From: a virus
DNA length: 27,611 nt
Direction: 5' to 3' (one strand)
IMG/VR virus record: IMGVR_UViG_3300020580_000231
Location: 1 to 27,611 of that record
In this document: piece by piece, positions 2,181-7,050 of the stretch
How positions within the stretch are numbered: the stretch's first letter is position 1
Layout of the letters: every line of letters begins with the position of its first letter
Translations under genes and position numbers: made by a program
Notes under the pieces: generated by a model
What the model saw: only the letters and a program-made list of their open reading frames with translations
Database searches by the model: none
Told to the model about the DNA's origin: nothing

Positions 2181-3707
2181 TTATCGTACTTTGTACCCAT
2201 CCAGCCACTTTTTTAGCCTAATCGTGGCGTCGGCATCCGAACATGCATAAGGCAGTAGTGCCAGTTCGGGAGCCGAACCTATACTAAGAACCGGGAGGGG
2301 GCCTAAAAACCCCTCTAATAGGTCCTTTTCATACCCATGCCACTCCTCAAAGGTCTTCCAGGGATCGGTAGGGGTCCCATCCCCCTGATCCTCCCACTTG
2401 CCCTCTAGGAGCTTGGAATTGAGCAATTTAACCTTCCTATATGTGAGGCCTAATGACTTATCTTGTTTAGTAGCAATGACTTTGGTGTACTTCTCACACC
2501 ATTTCTCCCCACACAATAGACACCCCCCAGTCCTTTTTCCGCTCTTCCCCCTCTCCTGGTGCTCATGTTGCGGATGCCCGCATTTGCACCAATCTTTGTT
2601 TTTTGGTTCGGCAGGAGAAAGAAGATCCTCCGCGTCCATGAGCCAACTGATGACCTGGGGGATGACAAAAGGAAGGCAAGTGTCCTTAAAACTCTTCATT
2701 TCCATGTGGAGGTGCCTAAAAGCCAGGGATTTGAGGCCTAGGGAGCCACGAGCGGCGTTAGATCCGGCTTCCTCATTGTCGTCCCCACCCCCTCCTAGCC
2801 CCAGGTCATAGGCCCGGATCATGGTATCGACGAATCGGCCTGGGGGAGGGTACACTAGACCCATTTTGGTCCTAACTTCTACGTCATGGAGCCAGTTGTG
2901 GAAGGCCATGAGGGGACGGCGGCATTGGAGGTAGCCGTGATAGGCCCTGAGGACCTTTTCATTGGTGGCGTAGATGAGGCGGGCAGTACCAGGAGTATGA
3001 GAGAAGGTTAGGCAATAGGGGGTGCCATCGGGGAGGTTCTCTGTGTCCTCGGCTAGGTCCCAGTAATGCTCCCTGCTAGGTAGGTAGTCATTTAGTTCGG
3101 CAACCGAATTGATGATCTGGTAATCGGGGGAGGGGTAGGGGTCCTGGGGATAGGCAACAGTCCCCTGGTCCAGATCCTTAATGAGTCGGCCTAGGGCCTG
3201 GAAGTCTCTCCTGAGGGGGATCATAGCTGCCGTAGACCTCAATCCATAGGCGGGGTGAAACATGGCCATATGAATCCCCTCCCATCCAGCATATTTGGCA
3301 GGGCGGGGGATGCCGTGGTGGAGCATTAGGTCAGTGCCTGGGAAGAGGGAGGCAGAGACGGCCCCCATGGTTACGATGATCTGGGGCTGGAGTCGCTCTA
3401 GATACTGAGGGAGGTGAGTGGAGGCACAGATCTGGGCCTGCTCAGGGGATGGGTTCTTGTAGGCTTGGTTCGAGCAGAGCATAGGATTCGCAACTGCCAC
3501 TTGGTCACGGAATAGACGGGCCAGTGGGAGGTATTGGTCATTAAGCTCTTGGCCGGATTGCCCTCGGTCAGCGAAGGGGATACCTTGACGGTCTTCAGCA
3601 GTGCTCGGCGCTTCTCCCAGAAACAACACACGGCATGGAAGTGGACCTGACGGGTAGATTGGATTCCTGCGGGGCACGCATGGACAAACACTACAACGTA
3701 TGCTCAT
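2181..3707 (-). CDS. Family 4-type uracil-DNA glycosylase fused to DnaQ/PolA-type 3'-5' exonuclease
   Basis: Residues about 1-180 are a UDG family 4/5-like domain. It has Cys5, Cys8, Cys78 and Cys94 in the spacing expected of 4Fe-4S ligands, motif LGEAPSTAEDRQGIPF (30-45) and the late motif HPAY (151-154). Residues about 210-508 are a DnaQ-like exonuclease as found in phage A-family polymerases, with D221/E223 (Exo I), N271/D275 (Exo II) and Y487/D491 (Exo III), so all catalytic positions are kept. A Cys/His cluster inside the exonuclease (C374, C376, H378, H381, H383, C396, C399, C404) looks like an inserted zinc-binding module. The protein ends right after Exo III, so the polymerase domain that often follows in phage fusions is absent. 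The likely role is repair or proofreading during phage replication. The ATG overlaps the HNH gene stop (ATGA). Confidence 0.85.
   Translation of the reverse strand: MSIRCSVCPCVPRRNPIYPSGPLPCRVLFLGEAPSTAEDRQGIPFADRGQSGQELNDQYLPLARLFRDQVAVANPMLCSNQAYKNPSPEQAQICASTHLPQYLERLQPQIIVTMGAVSASLFPGTDLMLHHGIPRPAKYAGWEGIHMAMFHPAYGLRSTAAMIPLRRDFQALGRLIKDLDQGTVAYPQDPYPSPDYQIINSVAELNDYLPSREHYWDLAEDTENLPDGTPYCLTFSHTPGTARLIYATNEKVLRAYHGYLQCRRPLMAFHNWLHDVEVRTKMGLVYPPPGRFVDTMIRAYDLGLGGGGDDNEEAGSNAARGSLGLKSLAFRHLHMEMKSFKDTCLPFVIPQVISWLMDAEDLLSPAEPKNKDWCKCGHPQHEHQERGKSGKRTGGCLLCGEKWCEKYTKVIATKQDKSLGLTYRKVKLLNSKLLEGKWEDQGDGTPTDPWKTFEEWHGYEKDLLEGFLGPLPVLSIGSAPELALLPYACSDADATIRLKKWLDGYKVR
2607..2619 (+). repeat. 13-mer TTCGGCAGGAGAA, exact copy 1
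   Basis: One of four exact copies in the window. It lies inside the exonuclease gene, antisense to it, where the coding strand reads Ser-Pro-Ala-Glu. See the finding on this motif. Confidence 0.6.
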
Positions 3708-4270
3708 TTTTTGAGTGCTCTGATCCTGTCCTCAATTTCATTACTGCTAATTACCAATCCAATGCCTAGGATGACTATAGTGCGTGTCTGAGGATCATCC
3801 GGCACAGGCACATTGTTCTTCTCCATGAATCTAAATACAGCTTGACTGTGAAGTGCACACAAACAATGAGCACCATGTATATCGTCAACTCCGCAAGCCA
3901 TACACGGCCCTCTATGTGCACGATGTAGTGACGTATGTGTCTGGGTGTCTATCAACATTAGATTGTCTATGCTGTTATCGGTTTTGTTTTCATTCTTGTG
4001 ATGTACCAGTTCGGTTGCTAGTAGTCTGCGCCCCAGGTGACGCTCCATCACATACCGATGCTCGGCTACAACTCTACCATCAGCAGTACGCAGATATAGA
4101 TACCCCTTGTGTTCCCATGTTTCGCTATCCTTTCTTACAGATCCCTTAGCAGGCGTATTCATGGGCAGGCCGTTTGCCACACGTTGATAGTGCATGCCAC
4201 AAAGACCCTTGGATAGATGTTTTCTGGTGCAACCTTCAATAGTACATGTGTAATGTGTTCTGGCTGGCAT
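3704..4270 (-). CDS. HNH homing endonuclease (HNH_3-like) with N-terminal zinc finger
   Basis: The N-terminus has a CxxxxC...C..H finger (C9, C14, C24, H27: CTIEGCTRKHLSKGLCGMHY), common in free-standing phage HNH proteins. The HNH core follows at about residues 56-118: VVAEHRYVMERHLGRRL, then ELVHHKNENKTDNSIDNLML, then HTSLH. A second Cys/His cluster (CMACG...HCLCALH) comes after it. The fold nicks or cuts DNA at a specific site and usually promotes its own spread. The gene sits directly between a 31-codon remnant of the UDG 5' end (4276-4374) and the complete UDG-exonuclease gene, whose ATG overlaps its stop. This placement strongly suggests insertion into a UDG gene. The target site is inferred, not shown. 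Confidence 0.85.
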   Translation of the reverse strand: MPARTHYTCTIEGCTRKHLSKGLCGMHYQRVANGLPMNTPAKGSVRKDSETWEHKGYLYLRTADGRVVAEHRYVMERHLGRRLLATELVHHKNENKTDNSIDNLMLIDTQTHTSLHRAHRGPCMACGVDDIHGAHCLCALHSQAVFRFMEKNNVPVPDDPQTRTIVILGIGLVISSNEIEDRIRALKK

Positions 4271-4275
4271 ATCTA

Positions 4276-4374
4276 TTATCGGTCTCCTAGGAACAGGATT
4301 CGGCAGGGGGAGGGACCAGAGGGGAGGATAGGGTTACGGCCTTTAGTGCAGGGGCAGATAGAGCATCTAGTCAA
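4276..4374 (-). pseudogene. Remnant of the 5' end of a second UDG-exonuclease gene
   Basis: The frame from TTG at 4374 to TAA at 4276 encodes 32 residues that match the N-terminus of the UDG-exonuclease downstream. It reads RCSICPCTKGRNPILPSG then CRILFLGD, against RCSVCPC, RNPIYPSG and CRVLFLGE; I count 21 identities over 31 positions. The CxxC half of the Fe-S site is kept. Similarity stops exactly where the catalytic GEAP motif should start, then a stop codon appears and the HNH gene begins 5 nt later. It follows the stop of the upstream gene directly, as a real first exon would. A short translated peptide cannot be excluded, but a gene fragment is the best reading. Confidence 0.8.
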
Positions 4375-5007: not shown

Positions 5008-5442
5008 TTATTTAATTCCTATCATCTGGTCGTAGTTCTTACGCTTCTGGGGATGGCTCAAGATGTCATGAGCATGATTCAGGTACTTGATCGTCTCCTC
5101 GCTACCCCCCTCTTTGTCTGGGTGATGGCGTTTAGAGAGGGATCTCCAGGCAGCGGTGATGACCTCGGGGGATGCCTTAGGAGAGATCTCTAGGATATCG
5201 TAGAGAGTCACAGTCCTGGGGGCAGTGGCAGAGGCCTGAGATTGGGCCTTGCCCTGCGCCTGGGCTTTGGTCCGACGCACATAATCCTGGACTTGAGGCA
5301 GGGGGAGGGGAGAGTTAGGCAGGAATCTCTCTAAGACAGCTTGAAACATCTGGTCCATGGCTTGGGAGAGATGGGAGGCCATTAGCTCCTCAAGAGAAGG
5401 GGGCTGGGAGAGGGAGCGGCGTTTAGTGGGTTTCTTAGGCAT
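5008..5442 (-). CDS. J-domain (DnaJ-like) protein, 144 aa
   Basis: A C-terminal J domain occupies about residues 78-141. It includes TLYDILEISPKASPEVITAA, the helix II basic patch, the HPD tripeptide at 107-109, and helices III/IV (KYLNHAHDILSHPQKRKNYD). The HPD motif is what stimulates Hsp70 ATPase. About 75 residues precede it: a basic start, a helical stretch (ELMASHLSQAMDQMFQAVLE) and a Gln/Ala/Lys linker. No G/F region or zinc finger is attached, so this is a type III-like J protein, probably recruiting host DnaK to a phage process such as replication initiation. ATG 5442 overlaps the preceding stop in the octamer ATGCCTAA. An in-frame TTG at 5451 is less likely. Confidence 0.85.
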   Translation of the reverse strand: MPKKPTKRRSLSQPPSLEELMASHLSQAMDQMFQAVLERFLPNSPLPLPQVQDYVRRTKAQAQGKAQSQASATAPRTVTLYDILEISPKASPEVITAAWRSLSKRHHPDKEGGSEETIKYLNHAHDILSHPQKRKNYDQMIGIK

Positions 5443-5644
5443 TGGATTCAAGTACCTTCCTGGCTAAAACTAGCTTCTCGGAATCCACCAATACAGCAGC
5501 AGGATAGTATAAGGACCCAACCCAACCGTAGAGTGGGTCACGGTAACGGTTTTTTCTAACCTCGGGCGTCCACAGTGGTAATATTCTTAGGACTTCCTCC
5601 AGTTCATGTATCCTGGTCCGTAGTTTTTCTACTTCCTGACTCAT
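5435..5644 (-). CDS. Hypothetical protein, 69 aa, with N-terminal coiled coil
   Basis: Not recognised. Residues 2-25 form an amphipathic helix rich in Glu/Leu (QEVEKLRTRIHELEEVLRIL), followed by an aromatic segment (DPLYGWVGSLYYPAAVLVDS) and a short final helix. The ATG at 5644 sits in an ATGA overlap with the HhH remnant stop. The in-frame codons further upstream lie inside that gene. It is coupled to the J-domain gene downstream by an 8-nt overlap. Confidence 0.65.
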   Translation of the reverse strand: MSQEVEKLRTRIHELEEVLRILPLWTPEVRKNRYRDPLYGWVGSLYYPAAVLVDSEKLVLARKVLESNA

Positions 5645-5766
5645 AATTCTTCTCCTGGGTCCTTCCATACCCCTCTCAATTGATCAAATGCCCGTTTAGC
5701 CAGGACCTTGCCGAATCCTGGAATTGTCTGCCATTCAGCCGGACCCGCTAATAACAACCTAAGCAT
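5641..5766 (-). pseudogene. Orphan HhH tail, remnant of a second ERCC4-type nuclease gene
   Basis: The 41-residue frame from ATG 5766 aligns along its length with the last 41 residues of the ERCC4 nuclease encoded at 6232-7050. It has WQTIPGFGKVLAKRAFDQLR and GVWKDPGEEL, against WETIKPGIGKVMAKRCWEQIR and GIWREKGEEL. It is therefore a helix-hairpin-helix fragment without a nuclease domain. The nucleotide sequences have diverged considerably, so the duplication is not recent. It begins inside the stop of the HNH gene (ATGCTTAG) and ends in an ATGA junction. Intact overlaps on both sides mean it could still be translated as a free HhH peptide. Origin as a 3' gene fragment cut off by HNH insertion is the simplest explanation. 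Confidence 0.75.
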
Positions 5767-6235
5767 CGTTGTCCTTTCTATGTATCTCACCATGACACAG
5801 GGTACACAACCATTCAACGGACAACGGCTTAGAATAGTCGGCATGATGCCCATGTACTGGGCCACGACGCCCGCAACGTGAACACTTGCTAGGACGTTTG
5901 ATTTGTCCCTGGTCTATGGCCGATCTCAGTAAACGACGGGCTTTACGCTTGGCCGTGTACCTGTGTAGCCTAGCCCTCTCTTTGAGCTTGTAAGATAGCT
6001 TACGGAACTTCTCACGGCTGGACGCACGCACTCTCTCCCTATTTTTGATGTAGTATTTTCTATACTTGGCCCGCATCCTTTGTGCATTTTTGGGGTAGTA
6101 TTCCTTCATGTACTGGCGCATGTGGGCATTCTTACAAGGCTTGCATGTTCCAGTTACTCCCCCAGCACATCCCTTATTTTTTACGAACTCGTACAAGGGC
6201 TTAGTTTGTCCACACTTAGAGCACGTTTTAGTCAC
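5759..6235 (-). CDS. HNH endonuclease with two zinc-binding motifs, 158 aa
   Basis: An N-terminal finger (CSKCGQTKPLYEF...TCKPCKNAH) is followed by a very basic helical linker and a C-terminal HNH-type motif: CSRCGRRGPVHGHHADYS, then LSVEWLCTLCHGEIHRK. Four Cys form the structural zinc site and the HH/H residues form the catalytic site. This architecture is common in free-standing phage HNH endonucleases. A longer frame exists upstream, but GTG 6235 overlaps the ERCC4 gene stop as GTGA and has GAGG 5-6 nt upstream, so it is chosen. The gene lies exactly between the complete ERCC4-HhH gene and an orphan copy of the HhH tail, indicating insertion into, or recombination at, the 3' end of an ERCC4 gene. 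Confidence 0.8.
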   Translation of the reverse strand: MTKTCSKCGQTKPLYEFVKNKGCAGGVTGTCKPCKNAHMRQYMKEYYPKNAQRMRAKYRKYYIKNRERVRASSREKFRKLSYKLKERARLHRYTAKRKARRLLRSAIDQGQIKRPSKCSRCGRRGPVHGHHADYSKPLSVEWLCTLCHGEIHRKDNDA

Positions 6236-7050
6236 AACTCCTCGCCTTTCTCCCTCCAAATTCCACGGATTTGTTCCCAACACCTTTTAGCCATCACCTT
6301 ACCGATCCCTGGCTTGATCGTCTCCCACTGTTCCACGGATGCATTGGCTAGGTCCAATCCGGTCTGGAACTTATTAGCCACGGCCCCAGACTTGGTCCAT
6401 CCAATTCCAGCCAAGTCAGCCGCCCACTTCCGTACAAGCCCCGCTTTCCCCAGTGTGGCCAATGTCTGAGGCACATGCATAGCTTCATGGCTATGGTGCT
6501 GCTCATAAGGCTTCTGGTAGTGGCTATAGAGGCTTAGGATCTGGGCACAAGTCTCATAATCGGTATTCGTCCTCCTCACTCTCACCCTGGTCATCTGCTC
6601 CAGGGTACAGCAAAAATGATCCAATTCCGTGTACCTAAAGGTCTGAGTACTCCCACACGTAACTGGTACCCATTTACCACCCATCGTATCCCCTAATGGA
6701 TGCGCGTGAGTCACCAGAGCCTCTAGTTCTCCTGCCGGACCACAGCGATGGTGGCCCTCGATTATGAGATAGCATTGGTCGTAGAGGTCGAGCATCTCGG
6801 GGAGCTGGTGGCCAGAGTAGCGGCCAGACCTAATGCTATTCATCATGTCACGAAGGCGCTTGCGCTCGATCCCGATCATGAGGCGTTTAGATGAGGGGCC
6901 TAGGCCGTCGAAGCAGATGTCGCCACCGAGGAGGCGGGAAGAGGTCACGGGAGGGGGTACTTGGCTCTTAGATCTACAGAGGACTTGGGCTAGGTCCTGG
7001 AGGATGGGGATAAGTTCGATGGAGCCTATGCGGTCGTCTACGGTGATCAC
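6232..7050 (-). CDS. ERCC4 (XPF/Mus81-type) nuclease with C-terminal helix-hairpin-helix
   Basis: The catalytic signature GDx(n)ERKx3D is present as D44, E62-R63-K64 and D68 (GIERKRLRDMMNSI), preceded by the usual beta strand start ITVDDRIGS. Family members cut branched or flapped DNA near single/double-strand junctions. A C-terminal HhH region (about residues 190-272, with two helical hairpins including AGIGWTKS and PGIGKVMAKRCWEQIRG) would bind DNA. The length of 272 aa fits phage and archaeal-like single-chain members without a helicase domain. GTG 7050 has AAGGA 8-9 nt upstream. The role is probably processing of replication forks or recombination intermediates. The gene is intact although an HNH gene and a partial duplicate of its own tail follow it. 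Confidence 0.85.
   Translation of the reverse strand: MITVDDRIGSIELIPILQDLAQVLCRSKSQVPPPVTSSRLLGGDICFDGLGPSSKRLMIGIERKRLRDMMNSIRSGRYSGHQLPEMLDLYDQCYLIIEGHHRCGPAGELEALVTHAHPLGDTMGGKWVPVTCGSTQTFRYTELDHFCCTLEQMTRVRVRRTNTDYETCAQILSLYSHYQKPYEQHHSHEAMHVPQTLATLGKAGLVRKWAADLAGIGWTKSGAVANKFQTGLDLANASVEQWETIKPGIGKVMAKRCWEQIRGIWREKGEEL

Follow-up and report, generated by a model that had tools for sequence, protein, structure and literature searches.

Two neighbouring loci of a soil phage share one anatomy, in which a free-standing HNH endonuclease gene has the full-length target gene on one side and, on the other, a second copy of one end of that target in the same orientation, and we consider it fairly probable that both are homing elements of a gene-end-replacing kind, where the nuclease brought along a new gene end that took the place of the native one. 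The loci lie in the 27,611-nucleotide stretch of viral DNA analysed here (the window), which is a permuted part of a circular-looking record of 61,475 bp whose two ends share about 97 identical bases. Every gene around the two loci is encoded on the minus strand. One target is an ERCC4 nuclease gene, where a second gene end had already been pointed out in the original prediction; the other is a UDG gene in the same window, a mirror-image case that was absent from that finding. On balance we lean, to a small degree, towards a broader statement: that phage homing elements capture and replace one end of a conserved gene, be it the 3' or the 5' one, that at least two unrelated HNH families did so close to each other in one genome, and that the ends left behind function as homology arms and as bridges for translation.

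Second gene ends beyond two HNH genes

The ERCC4-(HhH)2 nuclease gene (6232..7050, minus strand; PF02732, E=4.1e-8) is complete and codes for an XPF/Mus81-like protein of 272 aa with an ERCC4 nuclease fold, a GIERK motif and an (HhH)2 tail. Its AlphaFold model (pLDDT 90.7) consists of the ERCC4 domain and (HhH)2, and the best PDB match of the model is A. pernix XPF (E=1.8e-10). The resident tail, residues 231-272 with the second HhH (6235..6360, minus strand), is the presumed replaced end. HNH2, a free-standing HNH endonuclease gene of 158 aa (5759..6235, minus strand; phrog_2340 endonuclease, E=6.8e-33), starts with GTG at 6235 and overlaps the ERCC4 stop in GTGA (6232-6235). Beyond it is the orphan tail, an open frame of 41 codons (5641..5766, minus strand; MLRLLLAGPAEWQTIPGFGKVLAKRAFDQLRGVWKDPGEEL), which by its alignment to the resident tail appears to be a displaced copy of the ERCC4 3' end. 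Its start overlaps the HNH2 stop in ATGCTTAG (5759-5766), and its stop overlaps in ATGA (5641-5644) the start codon of the next gene (5435..5644, minus strand), whose product begins with MSQEV.

The orphan tail is identical to residues 232-272 of the ERCC4 protein in 22/40 positions, with one gap; it finds the resident tail with E=1.9e-11 in the 61-kb genome (1e-10 by blastp), and the nucleotide alignment of the two tails scores 57, with the best shuffle reaching 44. With such E-value and identity, and with a nucleotide score above all shuffles, the match is not a chance one. The original prediction, that the 41-residue ORF is a second copy of the ERCC4-HhH tail and that an HNH gene stands between it and the complete nuclease gene and overlaps both, is borne out by these numbers and by the exact overlaps, and the match is real at the nucleotide as well as at the protein level, the two at which it had called for an alignment. 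An AAAGGA just upstream of the orphan-tail ATG makes a good ribosome site, and judging from such signals the orphan tail can probably be translated. It may possibly also serve to link translation to that of the gene behind it, in the way of the ERCC4 start-stop overlaps in the relatives L113 and L114, where the ERCC4 stop likewise forms an ATGA-type overlap with the following gene.

At the second locus the UDG and polymerase-type exonuclease gene (2181..3707, minus strand) is 508 aa long and matches PF03167 (E=1.7e-16) and phrog_17. Its resident head, residues 1-32 (3612..3707, minus strand), is the presumed replaced end according to base comparison with relatives, and its ATG overlaps the HNH1 stop in ATGA. 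HNH1, a free-standing HNH_3 endonuclease gene of 188 aa (3704..4270, minus strand; PF13392, E=1.1e-8; phrog_7545, E=1.2e-14), separates the complete gene from the orphan head (4276..4374, minus strand), a probably displaced copy of the UDG 5' end. This frame of 32 aa has a TTG start, which overlaps the upstream stop in TTGA, and copies the first 30 or so residues of the UDG/exonuclease (72% over 29 aa, E=4.9e-12). The UDG/exonuclease gene and PolA (L008:4332-5780), separate in this phage, match successive parts of phrog_17, and in L120 there is a single gene of 869 aa with UDG at the N-terminus and polymerase-like sequence at the end.

HNH1 and HNH2 belong to different families (HNH_3 PF13392 versus phrog_2340), lie 1.5 kb apart and show the same pattern on opposite gene ends. 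Both carry the HNH homing endonuclease motif with intact catalytic and zinc residues, as seen from PF13392 for HNH1 and, for HNH2, from phrog_2340 and an alignment with seven homologues in which its zinc Cys and HH residues are intact. PDB sequence searches with the two proteins gave no match. When the 61.4-kb genome was compared with itself, the orphan tail and the orphan head were the sole gene-end copies lying across an HNH gene from the complete gene. A group I intron around the HNH genes was ruled out, as there is no Rfam intron match between 2100 and 7200 at E<=1 and both target genes are complete.

Relatives, native ends and the proposed course of events

The ERCC4 protein had no match in INPHARED by tblastn even at E=10 and no relative in a scan of bacterial genomes, and single-protein scans of IMG/VR returned this phage only; with the topoisomerase as a marker 80 loci were collected, and an ERCC4 relative occurred in 0 of the 50 of their records that were searched. 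The alignment of the two tails, taken as a query, brought ten relatives, and a wider alignment brought 79 ERCC4 loci in IMG/VR besides the window's own. The nearest of them are G052/L112 (62%) and L113 (60%). G052 is syntenic, with ERCC4, J-domain, ThyX, UDG and PolA in the same order, and has single gene ends and none of these HNH genes; L113 is likewise empty, having neither these HNH genes nor second ends. Besides in G052, the UDG/exonuclease gene has relatives in G055 and in L136, which shares its metagenome of origin with L113; both have the gene without HNH1, and L136 has no second end either. Insertion-free alleles thus exist in G052, L113, L136 and G055. Each of the 79 related ERCC4 loci has one tail, and the second tail is absent from 79/79; the 41-residue ORF was looked for there in places with no HNH gene nearby and does not occur, in keeping with the tie between tail copy and HNH gene that had been predicted. 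In 2/79 loci an HNH gene of another family than HNH2 is located directly downstream of ERCC4, starting at or over its 3' end (L120:4001-5316 and L192:2019-3691), and possibly the same target gene is used there by a different nuclease.

Compared with the resident ends, the orphan ends show the greater likeness to the near relatives. The orphan tail agrees with L112 and L113 in 22/39 and 25/39 residues and the resident tail in 19/39 and 15/39, the ERCC4 body being 64% identical to the same relatives; the orphan head agrees with two relatives in 65/90 and 60/90 nucleotides, and the resident head in 56/90 and 47/90. At the bases where two relatives agree with each other, the orphan-to-resident counts are 16:4 for the head and 18:9 for the tail (together 34:13, p=0.003), and at the corresponding residues 12:3 (p=0.035). 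The resident tail also has an extra K before PGIGK, which is found neither in the orphan nor in the closely aligned relatives. These comparisons draw on only 30 codons of the head and 40 of the tail, with the nearest relatives 60-64% identical. The tree that places the orphan outside and the resident with the relatives is the worst one (AU p=0.035, head and tail, aa). For the tail, as for both ends together, the tree that ranks highest pairs the orphan with the resident (AU 0.81 in both cases, aa), and on 30-40 codons it is not distinguishable from the tree that joins the orphan with the relatives (AU 0.24, aa). The original prediction had called for relatives that have a tail nearer to the orphan and no HNH gene; L112 and L113 are of this kind, whereas in the full set of 69 distinct ERCC4 relatives, which are mostly distant ones, the resident tail is the nearer of the two for 40 and the orphan tail for 21. 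Identity to relatives is low at the ERCC4 N-terminus too, and the resident ends could be native and fast-evolving instead of foreign. We infer that they may be foreign ends brought from a donor phage; searches for the donor found none.

The divergence between the two tails is constrained. Synonymous sites are saturated (pS 0.84) and pN is 0.34, with 55% of amino acids identical, while an unconstrained tail drifting that long would keep about 10% identity; between the orphan tail and L113 pN is 0.24, close to the 0.27 of the gene body. Since protein similarity was kept while synonymous sites became saturated, either the copies diverged in working genes or the orphan has been selected ever since, and the former option is the simpler one. 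The divergence of the tails most likely came before the insertion, and if it took place within working genes the insertion can be recent despite the diverged copies. It had been suggested originally that the event is old, as the tail is diverged, and in view of these values that conclusion does not follow.

We propose the following course of events. In a donor phage the HNH nuclease gene would adjoin a conserved phage gene, and during co-infection the nuclease would cut the recipient's gene near one of its ends, that is, near codon 231 in ERCC4 and near codon 32 in UDG. Repair would then copy the nuclease gene together with the donor's gene end, and a full-length chimeric gene would be rebuilt, while the recipient's own end, the tail for ERCC4 and the head for UDG, would be stranded beyond the nuclease gene. 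The stranded piece could further provide a homology arm for subsequent homing events and carry translation across to the following gene. We put forward cleavage, its positions, a donor as the source of the resident ends and the order of these steps as the arrangement that would lead to the present anatomy.

Other explanations of the orphan ends

One could suggest that the orphan tail is kept by selection as a working 41-residue peptide, which might for instance bind DNA as a free HhH module or act together with the nuclease, and the open frame, the constrained divergence, the AAAGGA ribosome site and the tight coupling with the neighbours are what such a peptide would have. The constraint is, however, equally explained if the tail was part of a full gene until recently; going by the predicted structure, the orphan would comprise only the second half of the paired (HhH)2 domain, no relative has an orphan tail, and the orphan head of UDG is a similar piece, a fragment of a catalytic domain without obvious use. 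We regard a selected peptide as unlikely, and under gene-end replacement a free-peptide function is not needed. The same divergence values weigh on old in-place partial duplications, in which the insertion of the nuclease would have duplicated the gene end in one lineage and the copies would then have drifted. The tree pairing orphan with resident, best for the tail although not significantly, would suit this, but saturated synonymous sites with 55% of residues kept would not, and the orphan, which should be the decaying copy, is the one nearer to close relatives, while relatives at a similar distance have no second tail. Such duplications are thus disfavoured by the divergence patterns, namely by tail pS and pN, by the site counts in relatives and by the neutral expectation of about 10%, and we hold them for quite improbable.

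About equally doubtful, in our opinion, is mosaic recombination of the ordinary sort during co-infection, with unequal joints falling within genes and the HNH genes as mere passengers. In phages, nuclease genes are frequently found at the borders of recombined segments (PMC10448857), and most relatives of HNH2 are without a gene-end copy. It would nevertheless require that two joints arose independently, both of them precisely around an HNH gene and with no such copies elsewhere in the genome, and it would have to leave reading frames and start-stop overlaps intact. An assembly artefact from mixed strains with and without the insertions comes to mind with metagenomic contigs such as these, yet two records of the phage are 100% alike over their overlaps and at every junction the coupled genes overlap cleanly, which makes an artefact very improbable indeed.

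Comparison with known systems and generality

A phage example of gene-end-replacing homing was not found in the open-access literature. In the phage Aeh1 the homing endonuclease gene mobE is inserted inside nrdA, a phage DNA-metabolism gene, which it splits into two working pieces; in the present case, in contrast, the gene is whole and a spare end is left. The seg and mob homing endonucleases of T4-like phages are, similar to HNH1 and HNH2, free-standing beside conserved phage genes, and they co-convert flanks and use upstream promoters, but they home through homology on both sides (PMC2988022), and the review of T4 homing makes no mention of duplicated or stranded gene ends (PMC2988022). A model of gene-end replacement has been published for the yeast WHO elements at the FBA1 locus of Torulaspora and Lachancea, for which cleavage was shown (PMC7282813), and also for mitochondrial gene hybrids in Allomyces and Glomus (PMC3630166). 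In the WHO elements, too, the endonuclease gene lies between the full-length target and a fragment of the target's end, and divergence is seen in the resident end of a target whose body is conserved (PMC7282813). The WHO fragment starts near the cut site (PMC7282813), and we count this as a likeness to the cut sites suggested here. The WHO nucleases differ in being eukaryotic intein-zinc-finger proteins that act on the FBA1 3' end, whereas here phage HNH proteins of two families are concerned with one 3' and one 5' end. Mobile ORFs of fungal mitochondria also make gene hybrids, of atp6 in Allomyces and of atp6, atp9, cox2 and nad3 in Glomus (PMC3630166); as in our loci, a C-terminal end is brought with the endonuclease ORF, the native end is displaced downstream and the copies are moderately alike, though the nucleases are LAGLIDADG or GIY-YIG and C-terminal ends only are involved (PMC3630166).

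If gene-end replacement is true for our loci, it would extend to phages the manner of homing that yeast WHO elements and the mitochondria of fungi are known for, and add a 5'-end version of it. It would also provide a simple source of chimeric phage genes and of the unexplained short ORFs beside HNH genes; a neighbour's end copied across a nuclease would be the sign to look for, and it would indicate where the cut probably lies, something that is usually difficult to guess with nucleases of the free-standing kind.

In about 2.1 Mb of other phage loci no clear second gene-end copy around an HNH gene was seen. Among the loci of the HNH2 family, with the window's own locus as a positive control, a gene-end copy occurred in 0/23, by which most members of this family do not replace gene ends. 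Among the self-similar pairs at the topoisomerase loci none is clearly a duplicated gene end flanking an HNH gene; most of them look like low-complexity or shadow-frame matches. Either the arrangement is rare, or it does not persist for long, or the copies have diverged beyond recognition.

A third HNH gene of the phrog_374 type is placed directly behind PolA (L008:3682-4350; 43682-44350 in the genome record, outside the window), and no stranded or second PolA end is detectable across it; the last 40 residues of PolA match G052 in 20/40 positions, and the whole PolA in 68%. ParB-like, topoisomerase and J-domain genes are also encoded in the 61.4-kb genome (L006-L008), and two of its longest proteins are without a Pfam or PHROG match. 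At 398-1199 of the window two adjacent helix-turn-helix-like ORFs are paralogues, with 45% identity over 84 aa.
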